Below the pieces are notes generated by a model. It was not told the origin of the DNA. It searched no databases and saw only the letters and a program-made list of their open reading frames with translations. A stretch of DNA of 64,000 nt from an uncultured Alphaproteobacteria bacterium. Its GTDB lineage: Bacteria > Pseudomonadota > Alphaproteobacteria > HIMB59. The position numbers and the translations under genes are program-made. The stretch spans positions 1 to 64,000 of the forward strand of contig CABXVZ010000003.1 of assembly GCA_902515765.1 (NCBI GenBank). The letters are read 5' to 3'. Shown here piece after piece: positions 43,775-51,374 of this stretch (positions are counted from its first letter, which is position 1; each line of letters opens with the position of its first letter).

Positions 43775-43823
43775 AAGTGGTGAGCCCAACAGGATTCGAA
43801 CCTGTGACACCCTGATTAAAAGT
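43775..43823 (-). repeat. Left attachment repeat: 49-bp copy of the tRNA-Lys 3' part
   Basis: Exact direct copy of 51296-51344. It reproduces the 3' 46 nt of the tRNA-Lys gene, from the anticodon loop through the T-arm to CCA, plus 3 flanking bases, then diverges abruptly (TTAGTGTG against TCAGGTGC). A partial tRNA copy 7.5 kb from the intact gene is the classic footprint of integration by a tyrosine recombinase, so this is the distal att site. Confidence 0.9.
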
Positions 43824-43881
43824 TAGTGTGTCTTGGTTCTCAAACCCAACAAGATAAACCTTTTCTAAGCATTGATTTAAT

Positions 43882-43904
43882 CTGTCCACCTTCAGTCCAC
43901 CTTT
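43882..43904 (+). repeat. Candidate integrase arm-type sites, left end
   Basis: CTGTCCACCTTCAGTCCACCTTT holds two GTCCACCTT direct repeats 11 bp apart, and TCAGTCCACCTTT recurs exactly at 51209-51221 near the other end of the island. Short repeats just inside both att sites are typical arm-binding sites for P4-type integrases. An inverted GGTGGAC lies at about 43960. Function inferred. Confidence 0.5.
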
Positions 43905-44041
43905 CTTAATCTACCTTAATCATTTTAACCTAAATATGAATCAATTTTTTTAAACTTGGGTGGACTACACCGAACCCCATGACGCGTGTGCGAGAACCTA
44001 CTGTTTCTGAATCATACAGGGGTTATTTATTCATAAATGAT

Positions 44042-44107
44042 AAAAGATACGCTCGTAATGTTTTAAGCGTACCTGTGAATCTTAAAACGCGTTTATCATA
44101 GGTTTAT
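44042..44107 (+). repeat. Inverted-repeat arm, left (pairs with 44471-44536)
   Basis: 66 nt; 57 match the reverse complement of 44471-44536. It includes an internal hairpin, GTTTTAAG-N13-CTTAAAAC. Read on the minus strand it encodes KPMINAF-stop, the same ending as the truncated cytidylyltransferase (KPLINAF-stop), with mainly silent changes. It is therefore the 3' end of a second, inverted gene copy rather than a transposon terminus. Confidence 0.8.
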
Positions 44108-44148
44108 ATCTTACCTTTGGTTAAGTTTTTAACCCCCCCTACTCGTAG

Positions 44149-44496
44149 CGTGTTGCTTCTGATGAAGTAGTAAATATGTACAAACCTAATATTCCAATAG
44201 TGCCATTAGAGCAGCGGATTGAAATGTTGAAGGCATTATCTTGTGTCGATATTGTTAGACCTTACCACAACCTTGAATATGTTTCAGGTTGTAAAGAGTT
44301 AAATGTTGATATTTTTGTCGTTGGGGAAGACTGGGGAAAAAAACCATATAATCTTGACGTTGATAATTTCATAATAAGTATGGGAAAAAAAATTCAAAAA
44401 GTTAAATATAATTCAATAACGTCATCTACTAAAATAAAAGAAATTGTTTTGGAACAGTATTTATCAAGGAATAAACCTCTGATAAATGCGTTTTAA
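44149..44496 (+). pseudogene. N-terminally truncated TagD-like cytidylyl/adenylyltransferase remnant
   Basis: The ORF track starts at ATG 44176, but family-like sequence continues upstream in frame (RVASDEVVNMYKPNIPIVPLEQRIEML) until a TAG at 44146. The protein matches the C-terminal two thirds of glycerol-3-phosphate cytidylyltransferase-type enzymes: EQRIEMLKALSCVDIV, LNVDIFVVGEDWGKK and ITSSTKIKE. The essential N-terminal GTFDLxHxGH motif is absent, so it cannot be active. Its last residues lie in the right arm of the inverted repeat. Interpreted as a decayed cargo gene of the island. Confidence 0.78.
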
Positions 44497-44536
44497 GATA
44501 CATAGGTTCGCTTAAAACATTGCGAGCATAGTTTTT
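44471..44536 (-). repeat. Inverted-repeat arm, right (pairs with 44042-44107)
   Basis: Contains the end of the truncated cytidylyltransferase (KPLINAF-stop, plus strand) and, on the minus strand, the end of a 46-codon ORF (KEEKLCSQCFKRTYVS-stop). In the left arm that second frame is broken by an early stop (KIRS-stop-CFKRT). The repeat thus spans a gene end plus downstream DNA, duplicated in inverted orientation. Confidence 0.8.
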
Positions 44537-44633
44537 CCTCTTTTACCCATTGAGTAATTCTTCGAATGTTGCCCCATGATCCATGGTATGTATCTTCATC
44601 TATTTCATACATCCATCCGTAAAAATCGATCAT
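44493..44633 (-). CDS. Small uncharacterised ORF (46 aa) with a CxxC motif
   Basis: Below the ORF-track cutoff; read by hand as MIDFYGWMYEIDEDTYHGSWGNIR... ending KLCSQCFKRTYVS. No ribosome-binding site is evident. It converges on the truncated cytidylyltransferase with a 4-bp overlap. The stretch GNIRRITQWVKEEKL resembles DNIGRITQWIKEDRL in the ferredoxin-NADP reductase of the same island, at DNA level too, which may be chance or a recombination trace. It may be a small zinc-binding protein or a non-coding remnant. Confidence 0.3.
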   Translation of the reverse strand: MIDFYGWMYEIDEDTYHGSWGNIRRITQWVKEEKLCSQCFKRTYVS

Positions 44634-44645
44634 AAGAGGTTACAT

Positions 44646-45068
44646 ATGAAATATATTACAATTATTTTTTTAGCATTTTTTACAACACAATCACTAGCAG
44701 ACAGCTTTGTTTTAGAAATGCTTAACAAAAGAACAGATGGACAAAGGATGGTATTCTCTGAAGATATCAAACATGTGGAGGTTGGCGACACAATCACATG
44801 GTTACCAACTACAAAAAACCATAATGTCCATTTCCTAGCAGGTCCAGAAAGTTGGGACATGCCTAAGCCTAGTCGAATAAACAAAGAATATTCATACACA
44901 TTTGAGATCCCAGGAATCTATTACTATCAATGTACTCCACATGATTCAGTAGGCATGATAGCACTAGTGGTTGTGGGTGGAGATACTTCTAATATAGATG
45001 TTATTGCTGAAGCAAAAGCAGTTGGCAAGGGTAAAAAGAAACTGAAACAATTGCTAGAACAATTATAA
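44646..45068 (+). CDS. Pseudoazurin-like cupredoxin (periplasmic type 1 copper protein)
   Basis: 140 aa from the ATG at 44646, chosen over the track's 44583 because AAGAGG lies upstream and a signal peptide starts there (MKYITIIFLAFFTTQSLA-DS). Type 1 copper ligands are visible: H59 (NHNVHF), C96 and H99 (YYYQCTPHDSVGM) and M104. The order and the CTPHxxxGMIALVVVG end match pseudoazurin. Small periplasmic electron carrier, usually for copper nitrite or N2O reductase or another redox partner; no such reductase is in the window. A basic C-terminal helix (KAVGKGKKKLKQLLEQL) resembles the pseudoazurin tail. Confidence 0.85.
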   Translation: MKYITIIFLAFFTTQSLADSFVLEMLNKRTDGQRMVFSEDIKHVEVGDTITWLPTTKNHNVHFLAGPESWDMPKPSRINKEYSYTFEIPGIYYYQCTPHDSVGMIALVVVGGDTSNIDVIAEAKAVGKGKKKLKQLLEQL

Positions 45069-45071
45069 TTT

Positions 45072-45479
45072 ATGAAATTTATATCATACGTCAGAAAGAT
45101 TCCTGAGTTCAAAGGAGCAAATTGGTTAATACGTACTCCAATTGGCATTGTGTTTATACTTCAGGGGTTGTCTAAGTTTCCATTGAGTATCGATGATGCA
45201 CAAGCATTTGGCCTGCCAATGACAGTATGGTTCTCTGCAGCTTGGGGTGAATTGATGAGTGGTATAGGTTTGCTGTTAGGAGGAACTTTTATATCTGGTG
45301 ATCGTGTTGGAGATCTATTAACACGTTTTAGTGGCATTGTAATTTGTTGCATAATGACTGGAGTAATACTGATAGGTGAACCTGAAAGCATTTGGTATGT
45401 ATTGCTTTATGATCATTTACATCTAATGCTGTTCTGTGGTGGTTTGTTTTTCGTTTTAAGAGGAAATAGAGTAAAGTGA
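45072..45479 (+). CDS. DoxX-family membrane protein
   Basis: 135 aa with four hydrophobic helices. LIRTPIGIVFILQGLSKFPLSIDDAQAFGLP and WGELMSGIGLLLGGTF fit the DoxX family, named for a thiosulfate:quinone oxidoreductase subunit but now covering many quinone- or redox-linked membrane proteins. It starts 3 bp after the cupredoxin stop, so the two are probably one transcript and might act together in membrane-linked electron transfer. Confidence 0.75.
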   Translation: MKFISYVRKIPEFKGANWLIRTPIGIVFILQGLSKFPLSIDDAQAFGLPMTVWFSAAWGELMSGIGLLLGGTFISGDRVGDLLTRFSGIVICCIMTGVILIGEPESIWYVLLYDHLHLMLFCGGLFFVLRGNRVK

Positions 45480-45567
45480 AAGATAAGTTCGAAATTAAAT
45501 TTTTATAAGATAGGCTATCGAATAAGAATTAAGTAATTTTATTAATCAAATAATAAGGAGATTATAA

Positions 45568-45876
45568 ATGTTAGTACTAGGACAAATTAAGTTGATTAAA
45601 GATTTTCAAGAATGGAAAAAAATGGTTCAAGAAAATGGCGATAAATTAAAAGAATATGGAATGACTTTTATATTTGCGGGAACTCAAGCAAACGATAACA
45701 CCATATTAAATACAGTTATGCACTTTCAATCTAAGGAGCACTTACAAAAATTTCAATCAGATGAAGAGTTAACCAAGCGTAGAGCAGAGGTTGTAGATGT
45801 TAATTCAGCTGTAATGACTCCAATTTCTGATACTGCTTTTACCAACTTCCCTGAGCCTTTGACCATAGAGGGGTAA
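45568..45876 (+). CDS. Small protein, probably dimeric alpha/beta-barrel fold
   Basis: 102 aa, preceded by a strong AAGGAG site 8 nt before the ATG. The pattern LGQIKLIKDFQEWKKMVQENGDKLKEYGMTFIFAGTQANDNTILNTVMHFQSKEHLQKFQSDEELTKRRAEV alternates strand-helix-strand as in antibiotic-monooxygenase/EthD-like ferredoxin-fold dimers. No catalytic residue is recognisable and I cannot name a reaction. It lies downstream of the cupredoxin-DoxX pair by 88 bp. Confidence 0.65.
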   Translation: MLVLGQIKLIKDFQEWKKMVQENGDKLKEYGMTFIFAGTQANDNTILNTVMHFQSKEHLQKFQSDEELTKRRAEVVDVNSAVMTPISDTAFTNFPEPLTIEG

Positions 45877-45990
45877 TTGTGATTAACTAAATGTTAGTGA
45901 AAATCATACAAATATAGTTATTATTTAATAAGAAAGGTATACATAGGTTAAACAGAATAGGGAACAACTCTATTAGTTTAGACTTTATTG

Positions 45991-46059
45991 GGTTAGATAA
46001 TTTAGCACTTCTTCCTGTCACGCAGGAGGTCGCGGGCTCGAGTCCCCTTGGCTCCACCA
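45991..46059 (+). pseudogene. Decayed tRNA-Asp-like 3' part (tRNA remnant)
   Basis: CTTCCTGTCACGCAGGAGGTCGCGGGCTCGAGTCCCCTTGGCTCCACCA carries an Asp-type anticodon loop (CTGTCAC), variable region, T-arm and CCA. The T-loop has CTCGAGT for TTCGAGT and the T-stem a mismatch, the 5' acceptor strand is missing and the D-arm is broken, so it cannot fold as a working tRNA. Probably a leftover att sequence from another integration. The ORF track entry at 46002-46265 only crosses this remnant. The rest of 45877-46229 is AT-rich without recognisable genes. Confidence 0.7.
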
Positions 46060-46229
46060 TTTACCTTAATAAAAAATAATAAACTGCTGATATCATAATA
46101 ATTATAACCCCATATCAAAAACAATCTTAAATAATTCGAAATACAGTTCAAAAAATTAGTAAAATTATTTATAGGAGTTACTTTATTTTTTTTTATTTTA
46201 TTAAATTTGAAATTTATTATTTTTCCTCT

Positions 46230-46988
46230 GTGATATACAAAGAGGTAGTTACTAAAGTTAAACATTGGAGTACAAGAACTTTTAGTTTTACGACTACAAG
46301 AAATTATCCAAATAAATTTAACAATGGAGAATTCACAATGATAGGTTTAGAAGATGAGGGAAAGAGTATAATGAGAGCATACTCTATTGCTTCTGCAAAT
46401 CATGAGGATTTTCTAGAATTTTTATCGATTAAATTAGATAAAGGCCCTCTTACATCAAAATTACGAAATATAAAAATAGGTGATGAAGTATTAATTCAGA
46501 ATAAATCTACAGGTACTCTTGTAATAGATTATCTTAAACCAGGAAGAAATTTGTACTTGTTATCTACAGGAACAGGGCTTGCACCATTTATGTCAATCAT
46601 AAAAGACCCTATGACATATGAAAGATTTGAAAAAGTTGTATTAACGCATACTGTCCCAGATCCTACACAACTAGCTTATTTAGAGGAGCTGACATTGTTT
46701 AATAATAGATGGAATATAATCACTAATAATAAATTTAATTATTTCAGCACACTTACAAGAGCTCCATGGGACAATATTGGTAGAATTACCCAATGGATAA
46801 AAGAAGATAGATTGCATAAAGCTATTAAATTTGAGCCTATTAGTTCAGAATTAGATAGGTTTATGGTCTGTGGTTCTTTAAATTTTAATAGAGAATTAAT
46901 TGAATATTTTAAAAATCTTGGACTTTCTGAGGGCAATACTTCAGTTCAAGGAGAATATTTAGTTGAAAAAGCGTTTGTTGAGAAGTAA
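46230..46988 (+). CDS. fpr: Ferredoxin--NADP(+) reductase (Fpr type)
   Basis: 252 aa. FAD-binding RAYSIASANHEDFLEFLSIKLDKGPLTSKL, nucleotide-binding LYLLSTGTGLAPFMSIIKD, then VLTHTVPDPTQLAYLEEL, GRITQWI and RFMVCGSLNFNRELIEYF, ending in a GEYLVEKAFVEK C-terminus typical of bacterial subclass Fprs. Moves electrons between NADPH and ferredoxin or flavodoxin. The start is a GTG at 46230; there is no in-frame ATG before the FAD motif. Lies in the island and converges with the formate dehydrogenase gene. Clearly a full-length enzyme. Confidence 0.88.
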   Translation: MIYKEVVTKVKHWSTRTFSFTTTRNYPNKFNNGEFTMIGLEDEGKSIMRAYSIASANHEDFLEFLSIKLDKGPLTSKLRNIKIGDEVLIQNKSTGTLVIDYLKPGRNLYLLSTGTGLAPFMSIIKDPMTYERFEKVVLTHTVPDPTQLAYLEELTLFNNRWNIITNNKFNYFSTLTRAPWDNIGRITQWIKEDRLHKAIKFEPISSELDRFMVCGSLNFNRELIEYFKNLGLSEGNTSVQGEYLVEKAFVEK

Positions 46989-47012
46989 TTGCCCTCAAGT
47001 CAGTAGATATAT

Positions 47013-48209
47013 TTATTTAGTATAATTTTTTGCTTCCTCAGACCCTCCTGTTGCATCACCTTTACTATAAGAGTGTTTACCTGTACCAGCTAATTCGCCT
47101 TCTGAAATAATTGTATACTCTGTTCTTTGTGGTTTTCCATCAAAGAGACACTCTAATATTTCTCTTACACCTGCAGCATATCTTGCTTGAGCAGAAAGAG
47201 AAGTGCCAGATGTATGAGGAGTCATACCTTGATTTGGCATCGTTCTCCAAATATGATCGTTCGGTGCTGGTTGAGGAAACCACACATCACCTGCGTAGCC
47301 CGATAATTGTCCTGACTTTAATGCATCTGCAATGGCATCTTTATCACAAATTTTTCCTCTTGCCGTATTTACTATATATGCACCTTTTTTCATTTTACTG
47401 ATTAACTCTGCATTAAACATATGCTCAGTTTCTGGGTGCAAAGGGCAATTAATTGTAACTACATCACAAACGGATACAAGTGACTCAACGCTCTCATGAA
47501 AAGTTAAGTTTAGTTCACTTTCGACACTTTCTGGCAATCGATGTCTGTCAAAATAATGTAAATGTGTATCAAATGGTTTCATTTTTCTTAATGCATCTAA
47601 ACCTATTCTACCAGCAGCAACAGTTCCAATATGCATACCCTCAACATCATAAGATCTTTTAACAGCATCAGCTATATTCCATCCACCAGCTTTCACTATG
47701 GCATGCTGATTATGATAATCTCTTACCATTGATATGATCATCATAACGATATGCTCAGCAACTGATCTTGAATTACAAAAGGTAACTTCCATGACATCAA
47801 TTTTGTGGTCCATTGCAGCTTGTAAGTCTACATGATCAGAGCCAATTCCCGCAGTTATGGCCATTTTCAAGTTAGGTGCTGTTTCCATTTTTGTTCTAGT
47901 TAAATAATATGGCCAAAACGGTTGAGATATAACAATATCAGCATCTTTTAGCTCTTTGTCAGCTTGACAGTCCTCACCGTCTTTATCACTAGTTACAACT
48001 AACTCATGGCCCAAATCCTCTAAAAATTTTCTAAGACCAAGCTCACCTGACACACACCCAAGTAATTGGCCGGGGTTAAAGTCTATAGATTTTGGTGTTG
48101 GAAGAGTCTGGCCATCTGGATATTTTTCAATTTTGGGGATTGTAGTCAGCGGATAACTTTCGGGCATTCCTTCAGTTGGGTCGTCGTATAAAACACATAA
48201 TATTTTCAT
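47013..48209 (-). CDS. fdh: NAD-dependent formate dehydrogenase (soluble, metal-free)
   Basis: 398 aa from the ATG at 48209, which has AAAGGA upstream; the track's 420-aa form adds a low-complexity Lys/Asn-rich leader. MKILCVLYDDPTEGMP, TLPTPKSIDFNPGQLLG, AITAGIGSDHVDL, CNSRSVAEH, GTVAAGRIGL, NCPLHPETEHM, NTARGK, DVWFPQPAPNDHIWRTMPNQGMTPHTSGTSL (catalytic Gln and His) and GTGKHSYSKGDATGGSEEA match Pseudomonas-type FDH throughout. Oxidises formate to CO2, making NADH, at the end of methyl-group oxidation pathways. Located in the island, divergent from the flavodoxin-fold gene. Confidence 0.95.
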   Translation of the reverse strand: MKILCVLYDDPTEGMPESYPLTTIPKIEKYPDGQTLPTPKSIDFNPGQLLGCVSGELGLRKFLEDLGHELVVTSDKDGEDCQADKELKDADIVISQPFWPYYLTRTKMETAPNLKMAITAGIGSDHVDLQAAMDHKIDVMEVTFCNSRSVAEHIVMMIISMVRDYHNQHAIVKAGGWNIADAVKRSYDVEGMHIGTVAAGRIGLDALRKMKPFDTHLHYFDRHRLPESVESELNLTFHESVESLVSVCDVVTINCPLHPETEHMFNAELISKMKKGAYIVNTARGKICDKDAIADALKSGQLSGYAGDVWFPQPAPNDHIWRTMPNQGMTPHTSGTSLSAQARYAAGVREILECLFDGKPQRTEYTIISEGELAGTGKHSYSKGDATGGSEEAKNYTK

Positions 48210-48582
48210 TTTTTTTTCCTTTTTAATTTCACCTGAATTATTTTTTTTAAAAAAATTATTAAAAAAATTTTTCACATAATTAAATTAATAAATTTAATAG
48301 TGAAAAAATATGTAAAAAAAAAATAAATAATAAAATCAATATCAAGAATTGTTTTAACTAATAAGTTACAAATAATCTAATACTCAATATTTTTTTATAG
48401 CAAAACTATTATTAATATAACTACTAAATAGGTTTATTTAGTAAATGATTTCAATAAAGTTCTAATAGTTATTAAAATAGTAATAAAGATAATTATTCTG
48501 AACTGTATTACAAATAACACGTCTCTAAAATATTTATAAAATTAGGTGAAAAGTAATTAAAAGTTATCTATTATCGTATTAA
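48210..48582. other. AT-rich intergenic region, 373 bp
   Basis: Very AT-rich divergent gap between the formate dehydrogenase and oxidoreductase genes. It contains one perfect hairpin, TACTAAATA-GGTT-TATTTAGTA (48423-48444), of unknown role. It must hold both promoters. I see no coding sequence or RNA gene in it. Confidence 0.6.
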
Positions 48583-49191
48583 TTGAAAAAGATATTTATT
48601 ATTTATGGTCATCATAATACTAAAGACTCTTTTAATGCTGAAATAAGGAACACTTTTATTAAAGAAGCAAAATTAAACGGCCATTATATTGATTTAGTTA
48701 ATTTATTTGATGAAGAGACTCAATTACCTTTTTATGATCAAAATATAAACCCTCCACCAAAATTAGTATTAGATTATAGAAAAAGACTGGAAAAATCTGA
48801 TGTAATGTTTTTAATTGGTGCTTGTCATAATTTAAGACTTAATAGCATATTAGAGAATTGGATAGATTGGGTGCTTCACCCTAAATGGTTCTTTTCTTAC
48901 AGATCAATGTTTCAAAGTAGTAAATTTTTTAAAAATTATGGTTACCTCGTACCTGGAGCAATGAAAGGAAAACTGGGAATTGTTTCCATAACTTATGGTG
49001 GGCCCATGATTAGTTATTGGAATTTTAGTTTTTTTGATAACATACCTTTTAGAAGAATTAAGAAATCTGTATTTAAACTAGGGGGTTTAAGGACAAAATA
49101 TATTAGATTTTATTCTATCTTACCCAATTTAGACAAAAAGACTTTTAATAAGCATATGACAAGAGTGAAAAAGCTTGCAAAATCAATATAA
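48583..49191 (+). CDS. NAD(P)H-dependent oxidoreductase, flavodoxin-like fold
   Basis: 202 aa starting at a TTG (no ATG is available before the first strand). KKIFIIYGHHNTKDSFNAEIRNTFIKEAKLNGHYIDLVNLFDE is the FMN-binding start of NQO1/MdaB/KefF-like proteins, followed by DVMFLIGACHNLRLNSILENWIDWVLHPKWFFSYRS, where the W and P loop shapes the flavin pocket. The C-terminal half is basic and less conserved. Likely a quinone or nitro-compound reductase. It stands in the redox-rich island. Confidence 0.75.
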   Translation: MKKIFIIYGHHNTKDSFNAEIRNTFIKEAKLNGHYIDLVNLFDEETQLPFYDQNINPPPKLVLDYRKRLEKSDVMFLIGACHNLRLNSILENWIDWVLHPKWFFSYRSMFQSSKFFKNYGYLVPGAMKGKLGIVSITYGGPMISYWNFSFFDNIPFRRIKKSVFKLGGLRTKYIRFYSILPNLDKKTFNKHMTRVKKLAKSI

Positions 49192-49231
49192 ATAATGACA
49201 TTTTCAATTAACTTAAAATTTATTTCCTTAA

Positions 49232-49705
49232 ATGTTGAATAAGAAAATACTTTTTAACGCTTTAGTTTCAAGTCTTGGGGCATTTTTATGTATAACATTT
49301 TTAGCTTTTTTAAATGGCATAGACGAGTCAACATTGTGGTTAATACCTCCTTTTGGTGCCTCTATGGTTTTAGTTATGTCTGCCCATGAAAGTCCTTTAG
49401 CTCAGCCTAAAAATATTTTTTTTGGCCACACTTTGTCTGCTTTGTCTGGAGTGGCTGTAAATACTTTCATGAGTTCAAGTTTTTTGACAATCGGTATCGC
49501 AATCGGTCTGGCAATTTTTATTATGATTATAACAAAAACAGTTCATCCACCAGCTGGTGGAAACCCAATAATAGCAGTAATGGCTTCAAAATCTTTTGAA
49601 TTTATATTTATACCAGTCGCTTTAGGAGCGTTGATAATAATAATTTTTTCTTTGATATATAATAAATCTATTAAAAGAGTGTATCCTTCAAAAGAAAAAA
49701 TATAG
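49232..49705 (+). CDS. HPP-family membrane protein
   Basis: 157 aa with four to five hydrophobic helices. LWLIPPFGASMVLVMSAHESPLAQPKNIFFGHTLSALSGV and ITKTVHPPAGGNPIIAVMAS carry the HPP motif that names the family, some members of which are nitrite transporters of plastids and cyanobacteria. No CBS domain follows. It lies 40 bp after the oxidoreductase gene. Role here unknown; with pseudoazurin nearby, a link to nitrogen oxides is possible but not shown. Confidence 0.8.
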   Translation: MLNKKILFNALVSSLGAFLCITFLAFLNGIDESTLWLIPPFGASMVLVMSAHESPLAQPKNIFFGHTLSALSGVAVNTFMSSSFLTIGIAIGLAIFIMIITKTVHPPAGGNPIIAVMASKSFEFIFIPVALGALIIIIFSLIYNKSIKRVYPSKEKI

Positions 49706-49717
49706 TGAAGAAAATTT

Positions 49718-50344
49718 TTAGATTTTTTTGAATTTTTTCTCGTTTAGAATGTCAGCAAAATTGTGATTTACATCTCTATGGCCAGCTTCATCATCTCTAA
49801 TAACTTGAACGACATCTTTTAATTTAGAATTAAGAGGCAAGTTCCAATAATTTACAGCTATTTCAGGAGCTTTTGTGTTTTCTATTTTACCGTCTTCAAT
49901 TTCCTTTAGATATTCAGTATAGCTTATTACAGCCTCTTCCTCAAAATACCCGACTATTCTATGAGCTGTTCTTTGCGAAACGATATATATTATTAAATAC
50001 ATGATTATGAATATGAATTGTGCAAATAAAATGATCAAGCGTTCAATAAAAGTAGGTTTGGCTATTTCAATAAATGTCATTAAATGCATCCTTTCATTCT
50101 CAGCCTCGTCTAAGAGAGTTTTTATCCAACCTTTATCGTCTTGCATTTTCCTTAATGATTTTAAATGAATTAACATACCTGCCACCATCCCTGGAACTGC
50201 TGCGACAGTCTCTAGAACTACAGCCCTATGTCCATATTTTTTTTTAAAAAAAGTATCGGCTAAAAATCTAAGAAACTTAGTAAAAATTAATGCTGTACGA
50301 TCACTCAAATTTTTTGGAGTATAGTGTTTTGTTGTATAACTCAT
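49718..50344 (-). CDS. aox: Alternative oxidase (cyanide-insensitive ubiquinol oxidase)
   Basis: 208 aa. The diiron ligands and surrounding motifs can be read: LETVAAVPGMVAGM (E45), EAENERMHLMTF (E84, H87), YFEEEAVISYTEYL (E135/E136) and RDDEAGHRDVNHNFAD (E186, H189). A hydrophobic stretch at about 98-122 is the membrane-binding region. Oxidises ubiquinol with O2 without pumping protons, so it can drain excess reductant. Complete catalytic set; the length fits bacterial AOX. Unusual cargo for an integrated island in a small genome. Confidence 0.92.
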   Translation of the reverse strand: MSYTTKHYTPKNLSDRTALIFTKFLRFLADTFFKKKYGHRAVVLETVAAVPGMVAGMLIHLKSLRKMQDDKGWIKTLLDEAENERMHLMTFIEIAKPTFIERLIILFAQFIFIIMYLIIYIVSQRTAHRIVGYFEEEAVISYTEYLKEIEDGKIENTKAPEIAVNYWNLPLNSKLKDVVQVIRDDEAGHRDVNHNFADILNEKKFKKI

Positions 50345-50401
50345 GAAAATTTATTTTTTTGTGTTTATAATGTTCAAATTAACTACTGTTCAATAATTAA
50401 T

Positions 50402-50797
50402 TTAGATTAGAATAAAAACTAAGCAAAACATTTGAATAAAATTTAAAATAACTGACAAAAGATGAGAATTCTTGAATTTTTTGTGTAAATTTTGATCACT
50501 AAACTTATTTATTAGAGGCATCAATAAAAAATTTGATATAAGAAAAAGTATCGCTGTAAGGGAAATGAGGTAAAATTTAATTCCAAACATATTCAGATAA
50601 ATAAAAAAAAGAAAAACAACCAAACTTAAAAAAAAATTTATAAGATAGTAATATGGAAATATTTTCCTAATAAAAACACTATAGTTTTCTTTATTTAATG
50701 AGGAAAAAGCTACAGGTGCAACTACAAAAGAAAAGAAAATCATTATACCGAGGATAATACTTGTCAGAAAAAGACTAATATTTAAAATCACGATCAA
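50402..50797 (-). CDS. DUF4149-like membrane protein
   Basis: 131 aa with four hydrophobic helices and the family-like sequence MIFFSFVVAPVAFSSLNKENYSVFIRKIFPYYYLINFF, where the P-x-x-F after helix 1 is typical. No ATG is present; the track start is TTG, with a GTG two codons later as an alternative. Function of the family is unknown (TMEM205-like). It lies between alternative oxidase and the integrase remnant. Confidence 0.6.
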   Translation of the reverse strand: MIVILNISLFLTSIILGIMIFFSFVVAPVAFSSLNKENYSVFIRKIFPYYYLINFFLSLVVFLFFIYLNMFGIKFYLISLTAILFLISNFLLMPLINKFSDQNLHKKFKNSHLLSVILNFIQMFCLVFILI

Positions 50798-50827
50798 TAA
50801 AAATAAACCAAATTTTAAAATTTACAT

Positions 50828-51097
50828 TTAAATAATTAAATATTTTGTCACGGCTAAAGATACTTTCAATTCCCTACATCTATCTAATGCTATAGCAGGG
50901 GTGATTTGGGGGTATACCCCTATCCTATAATTGTAATTGTAGCCATTTTCCTTGTAGTTAAAGTAAAATGTTTTAACGCCTGTAGATCTAACATCAATGT
51001 TAAGACCTTTTAGCTCTTTGTGATAATACCTAATTCTTTTTTCAGGTTTAGGTATCTTGTTAATACTTCCCTTGTTGAACTCAATATATTTAGTCAT
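50828..51097 (-). pseudogene. Truncated P4-type tyrosine integrase (arm-binding domain only)
   Basis: 89 aa where about 400 are expected. MTKYIEFNKGSINKIPKPEKRIRYYHKELKGLNIDVRSTGVKTFYFNYKENG..RIGVYPQITPAIALDRCREL matches the N-terminal DUF4102 arm-DNA-binding domain of tRNA-associated integrases; the core-binding and catalytic RHRHY parts are absent and the next gene follows immediately. It lies about 200 bp from the tRNA-Lys 3' end, the normal place for the island's own integrase. The element is therefore stuck in place. Confidence 0.85.
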
Positions 51098-51208
51098 AGC
51101 TTCTACCTTTCTTTAAAGGCTTATGGGAAATTCTGTTCTGACTTAAAATCACTTCCATAGTTATTGTCATAAAAGCGTTGGGGGTGTGCTTAGAATCTCA
51201 GTACACCC

Positions 51209-51221
51209 TCAGTCCACCTTT
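51209..51221 (+). repeat. Candidate integrase arm-type site, right end
   Basis: TCAGTCCACCTTT, identical to 43892-43904 near the opposite end, with a degenerate second copy just before it (AGTACACCC). It sits between the integrase remnant and the tRNA-Lys gene. The surrounding 51098-51298 region has no genes. Confidence 0.5.
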
Positions 51222-51295
51222 GTAGAGAACAGTCATTCTTTTGGGGGATAAGATCTCAATACTTTGTGCAAGTTTCTCACCACTTTCTAATCAGA

Positions 51296-51344
51296 AAGTG
51301 GTGAGCCCAACAGGATTCGAACCTGTGACACCCTGATTAAAAGT
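51296..51344 (-). repeat. Right attachment repeat inside tRNA-Lys
   Basis: The tRNA-proximal member of the exact 49-bp direct repeat (other copy 43775-43823). It runs from just outside the CCA end into the anticodon loop of the intact tRNA-Lys gene, which the integrated element therefore leaves functional. Confidence 0.9.
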
Positions 51345-51374
51345 CAGGTGCTCTACCAGCTGAGCTATGGGCCC
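51299..51374 (-). tRNA. tRNA-Lys (anticodon TTT)
   Basis: 76 nt with a complete cloverleaf on the minus strand: acceptor GGGCCCA / TGGGCTC (one G-T pair), D-arm GCTCAGCTGGTAGAGC, anticodon stem CCTGA/TCAGG around CTTTTAA, T-arm ACAGG-TTCGAAT-CCTGT, and encoded CCA. It serves as the integration site of the 43.8-51.3 kb island. Confidence 0.97.

Follow-up and report, generated by a model that had tools for sequence, protein, structure and literature searches.

Inverted gene ends within a tRNA-Lys island of a marine alphaproteobacterium, probably of the genus HIMB59

Two 66-nt stretches in the genome of an uncultured marine alphaproteobacterium, probably of the genus HIMB59, at positions 44042-44107 and 44471-44536, are identical at 57 of 66 nucleotides in inverted orientation. 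A cytidylyltransferase gene that has lost its beginning lies between them. How did two copies of one gene end come to lie back to back in this way? The window, the whole stretch of 64,000 nucleotides that was analysed, was compared with related genomes including a genus set that has one complete member (G030, 1,410,127 bases). An earlier sequence-only reading had proposed either a pair of head-to-head genes collapsed by deletion or an active palindromic element that moves fragments of genes. The explanation preferred here, at a probability of about 0.8, is that the inverted duplication is the decayed scar of successive integration, cargo exchange and deletion in an island at a tRNA-Lys gene. 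The mechanism is ordinary, and the repeat itself is of little importance; the locus is the more informative part. The features of the locus are collected in Table 1.

Table 1. Features of the tRNA-Lys island and of the inverted gene ends (window coordinates)
Feature	Position	Strand	Evidence
attR, displaced 3' part of tRNA-Lys (tRNA positions 28-76)	43778..43826	-	tRNA copy alignment
7.5-kb island in the tRNA-Lys 3' end	43827..51298	.	missing from empty-site relatives
CAGTCCACCTTT motif near attR, putative integrase arm-binding site	43893..43904	+	motif scan
Left relic: last 7 codons (KPMINAF), stop, 3' flank, ~25 nt unrelated	44042..44132	-	G002 and G038 matches
Joint (C7 run) of left relic and beheaded gene	44133..44144	.	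last G002-shared base (44132) to first intact-gene homology
Beheaded cytidylyltransferase, codons about 35-149, ends KPLINAF-stop	44145..44496	+	93% nt, 91% aa vs G038; PF01467
Right arm: gene 3' end, stop, 3' flank	44466..44536	+	arm alignment
Ferredoxin-NADP reductase-like internal fragment, abuts right arm	44530..44583	-	nt similarity
Plastocyanin/azurin-like and DoxX-like genes, island cargo	44646..45479	+	PF00127, PF07681
Hybrid tRNA 3' half: tRNA-Asp anticodon/T-arm fused to tRNA-Ala acceptor end	46002..46058	+	
4.8-kb block	46059..50865	.	follows tRNA-Ala in G021/G042 (97-98%) and G003 (84%)
Tyrosine integrase remnant, N-terminal arm-DNA-binding domain	50866..51097	-	PF13356, E 5.1e-9
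Second CAGTCCACCTTT motif, near attL, putative integrase arm-binding site	51210..51221	+	motif scan
Intact tRNA-Lys (TTT), attL	51299..51374	-	tRNA annotation

The arms and the beheaded gene

The match between the arms is real and well beyond chance, as had been claimed. The top inverted 66-mer in the 42-47 kb region scores 57 and eight shuffles of this 5-kb region gave 38-44; a BLAST search within the window finds the pair at E = 2.6e-16, and a longer alignment (44042-44112 with 44466-44536) covers 71 nt at 85% identity. Both arms encode the same C-terminal peptide and stop, KPMINAF-stop on the left and KPLINAF-stop on the right, again as first read. The accompanying statement that their differences are mainly silent was too strong: seven of the nine mismatches are located 3' of the stop, and the two in shared codons are one silent change (AAC/AAT) and one M/L replacement. 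With only these two in shared codons, coding constraint cannot be judged from the arm pair by itself. The repeat is nonetheless of coding origin, as proposed, and it is an intact homologue in the related genome G038 that demonstrates it.

The G038 gene lies in a tRNA-Lys insert, has 149 codons and an HVGH motif, ends in KPMINAF-stop and is divergent from a CDP-alcohol phosphotransferase gene. The ORF of the window gene (44176-44496) matches PF01467 over positions 42-132 of 133 (E 2.6e-5). As had been suspected, its homology reaches upstream of the ATG, to about 44150 by DNA alignment and to 44143 by tblastn with one TAG, and the start of homology aligns to codons 33-36 of the intact gene. The first ~34 codons are gone and with them the HxGH catalytic motif of PF01467 cytidylyltransferases, which belongs to the lost N-terminus and was not found in the window gene; the partner gene is absent too. 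Loss of the catalytic N-terminus by a beheading deletion, both part of the sequence-only reading, is thereby supported, and neither copy of the gene in the window would be expected to be catalytically functional. Between the window fragment and G038, dN is 0.030 and dS 0.236. The ratio of about 0.13 indicates that the gene was constrained until recently and that its loss is recent relative to the divergence of the two.

In its native head-to-head arrangement the gene is paired with a CDP-alcohol phosphotransferase, not with a second cytidylyltransferase. The phosphotransferase motif, sought in the fetched neighbourhood of 80 homologue loci from alphaproteobacteria, gammaproteobacteria and a few other groups, was present at 78 of them. 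A plausible role of the pair would be to activate a phospholipid head group and transfer it. The label "TagD-like" given to the gene holds approximately only, since the intact relative does not reach the curated cut-off of either the glycerol-3-phosphate cytidylyltransferase or the heptose-1-phosphate adenylyltransferase model; among the specific named NCBIfam enzyme models there is none whose cut-off the cytidylyltransferase reaches. The last ~12 C-terminal residues differ between lineages. Every phage homologue of the gene is <60% identical and the arm and joint patterns have no match in viral contigs; a phage origin was rejected on these grounds.

The left relic and the joint

The left arm can be followed separately. 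Window positions 44044-44132 match G002 (C10:11312-11400) at 92% over 89 nt, at the same tRNA-Lys locus, and 41 nt of the relic align at 93% identity with the end of the intact gene in G038. In G002 it sits between a DUF1330 gene and YtoQ with no cytidylyltransferase gene, following the DUF1330 gene after a 25-nt spacer. The inner 25 nt of the relic, 24 of which are identical in G002, align to the cytidylyltransferase gene no better than shuffles do (p 0.3-0.9). Being non-homologous to the gene and common with G002, they indicate that the left tail was truncated earlier than, and independently of, the beheading on the right. The left arm thus appears to be an older relic, independently inherited.

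The same observations bear on the proposal that a head-to-head pair of cytidylyltransferase genes was collapsed by a single deletion taking both 5' ends. The geometry is what such a collapse would leave, a minus-strand tail and a plus-strand headless gene 12 nt apart. Against it, the inner 25 nt are not cytidylyltransferase sequence, the relic stands alone in G002 and the native partner is the phosphotransferase; the collapse is highly improbable.

The intact gene of G038 has the 3' flank in common with the arms only for about 10 nt past the stop, so that assigning the flank to the gene depends on the two arms and on G002. The arm was found four times in 52 genus genomes, always at the tRNA-Lys locus and nowhere beyond it. 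This distribution is difficult to reconcile with an active element, palindromic or cassette-like (IS, MITE or attC-like), that captures gene ends and has the arms as its termini or recombination sites. Such an element would account for the arm standing behind two different genes, the window cytidylyltransferase and the DUF1330 gene of G002, and an inner 8-bp palindrome (GTTTTAAG/CTTAAAAC) is retained in three copies. Against it, there is no transposase, no target duplication or shared direct repeat >4 nt and no attC core pair, and the viral contigs hold no match. IS and MITE identities were therefore rejected, in line with the earlier remark that the repeat is not an IS terminus, and an active shuttling element is very improbable. 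Folding of the arm RNAs is no better than that of shuffles, the hairpin is weak, and a scan of the arms for an intrinsic terminator (a G+C-rich stem followed by a T run) found none, so a conserved RNA or terminator was also discarded. The palindrome itself is incidental, without demonstrated function.

The joint between the two copies is 12 nt long and includes a run of seven C. It is known from one assembly only, that of the window, which is 64% complete in 43 contigs; no second copy was found in 120 related genomes, 52 genus genomes or viral contigs. Multiple displacement amplification is known to create inverted joints as an artefact. An assembly or amplification chimera that fused two real sequences would fit an incomplete, fragmented genome and a joint seen once. 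Against this, the arms share only 86% identity, too little for a self-copy or a collapsed repeat; each half is found naturally at tRNA-Lys in another assembly (G002 and G038), and the outer flanks on both sides run collinear with G031. A chimera is thus highly improbable, and the joint is probably real rather than an assembly error.

The tRNA-Lys island

The relatives define the insert. YtoQ lies 9-32 nt from tRNA-Lys in G047, G021, G030 and about 20 others, and because the two are directly adjacent in these roughly 24 empty congeners, positions 43827-51298 are an insert. The displaced tRNA-Lys copy at its far boundary, 49 bp long, is identical at 46/46 nt to 51299-51344 and 98% identical over the whole copy. 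CAGTCCACCTTT has just two exact copies in the window, one per island end, where a mean of 0.16 is expected with one mismatch allowed. The integrase remnant adjoins tRNA-Lys and is broken at the block joint near 50865. No displaced tRNA copy was found in G002, and the boundaries of its insert are not sharp for that reason.

An integrase N-terminal domain alone beside tRNA-Lys occurs in two genomes, here and at L187 2307-2540 (ORFs of 89 and 77 aa). The lone domain could be a stand-alone arm-binding protein instead of a product of decay.

The island interior consists of genes and scraps. The plastocyanin/azurin-like gene matches PF00127 at E 4.5e-12 and the DoxX-like gene PF07681 at E 1.2e-4, slightly under the curated cut-off. 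The reductase fragment shows 84-88% identity over 43-51 nt with G003, G021, G042 and the window's own intact gene (46230-46988); it is inverted relative to the intact copy. A minus-strand ORF over the right arm (44493-44633) has no Pfam or PHROG match and its core is this fragment, and it was dismissed as a gene. In the hybrid tRNA half, positions 46002-46046 are 89% identical to the genome's own tRNA-Asp, and from 46026 on the sequence matches the tRNA-Ala of G021 and its flank. In G011 and G005 (L198, L199) the same stretch that precedes 46002 ends at a different 3' half, apparently of tRNA-Arg type. This suggests elements recombining across different tRNA genes. The 4.8-kb block is missing from most congeners. 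It is 97% identical to G021, whereas in the flanks towards coaD and YtoQ the identity to that genome is only about 81-88%; the block is probably a recent transfer. The island is a composite, with pieces from several tRNA-linked sites.

At the same tRNA-Lys, unrelated inserts are found in other relatives. G023 and G009 have an autotransporter gene there, G006 one large gene and G038 four genes; G031 has six genes, mostly of unknown function, and its insert is entirely different although its flanks are 94-97% identical. Inserts of 2.4-6.3 kb with displaced tRNA copies are also present at L045 6654-9603, L046 5104-7508 and L183 8685-15057, and none of the three holds a recognisable recombinase gene. 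GTGAACC-type repeats lie near both ends of the L045 and L046 inserts, a pattern that suggests mobilisation in trans. One tRNA-Lys gene in a streamlined marine genome is thus an insertion hotspot, its contents swapped wholesale between close relatives, and most of the replacing inserts are small and lack a recombinase gene.

The scar reading places the inverted gene ends in this turnover, in an order of events that we infer. A tyrosine-integrase element would have inserted at the tRNA-Lys 3' end, duplicating that end, and further rounds of integration, recombination and deletion would then have changed the cargo. A divergent CDP-alcohol phosphotransferase/cytidylyltransferase pair was presumably among the former cargo. 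One copy would have decayed to its last seven codons and 3' flank on the minus strand, leaving the relic that G002 also inherited. A second copy, in opposite orientation, would have been stripped of its partner and of codons 1 to about 34, and joined to that relic. In a different conception, which has very little probability, the arm of 66-91 nt is a portable gene-end module, a C-terminal tag plus 3' flank, serving as an exchange point at the island; if true, island cargo genes would swap bodies and keep the tail.

Comparison with known systems

Integron cassettes likewise have a short, partly palindromic sequence at the gene 3' end. The arms differ from attC sites in their opposite orientation and lack of dispersal, and the core pair RYYYAAC / GTTRRRY occurs in none of three arm copies, so a cassette was rejected. 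Exchange of content at a fixed position is known from the same clade in the phosphate and phosphonate flexible islands of HIMB59, which are reported to have no tRNA at their boundaries (PMC10734472), unlike the tRNA-bounded island described here. Tycheposons have been described as elements of 4-200 kb that carry a tyrosine recombinase, alongside the flexible genomic islands found in streamlined bacteria of aquatic habitats (PMC10872708). The tRNA borders, variable cargo and small streamlined genome are alike; the inserts here are 2-7.5 kb, and with a truncated recombinase in place of a full one the island was not classed as a tycheposon.

The closest likeness is to tRNA-targeted islands with P4-type arm-DNA-binding integrases. 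Shared features are insertion at a tRNA 3' end, a displaced tRNA 3' copy at the far boundary, an empty site in relatives, an integrase beside the tRNA, a motif repeated near both ends and variable cargo. The differences are that the integrase is truncated, the island holding its N-terminal arm-binding domain and no functional integrase, and that most inserts at the site show no recombinase gene. Since a remnant is all that is left of the integrase, the island is claimed as a decayed member of the tRNA-targeted integrative islands, one that bears on accessory gene exchange among the tiny genomes of the ocean.
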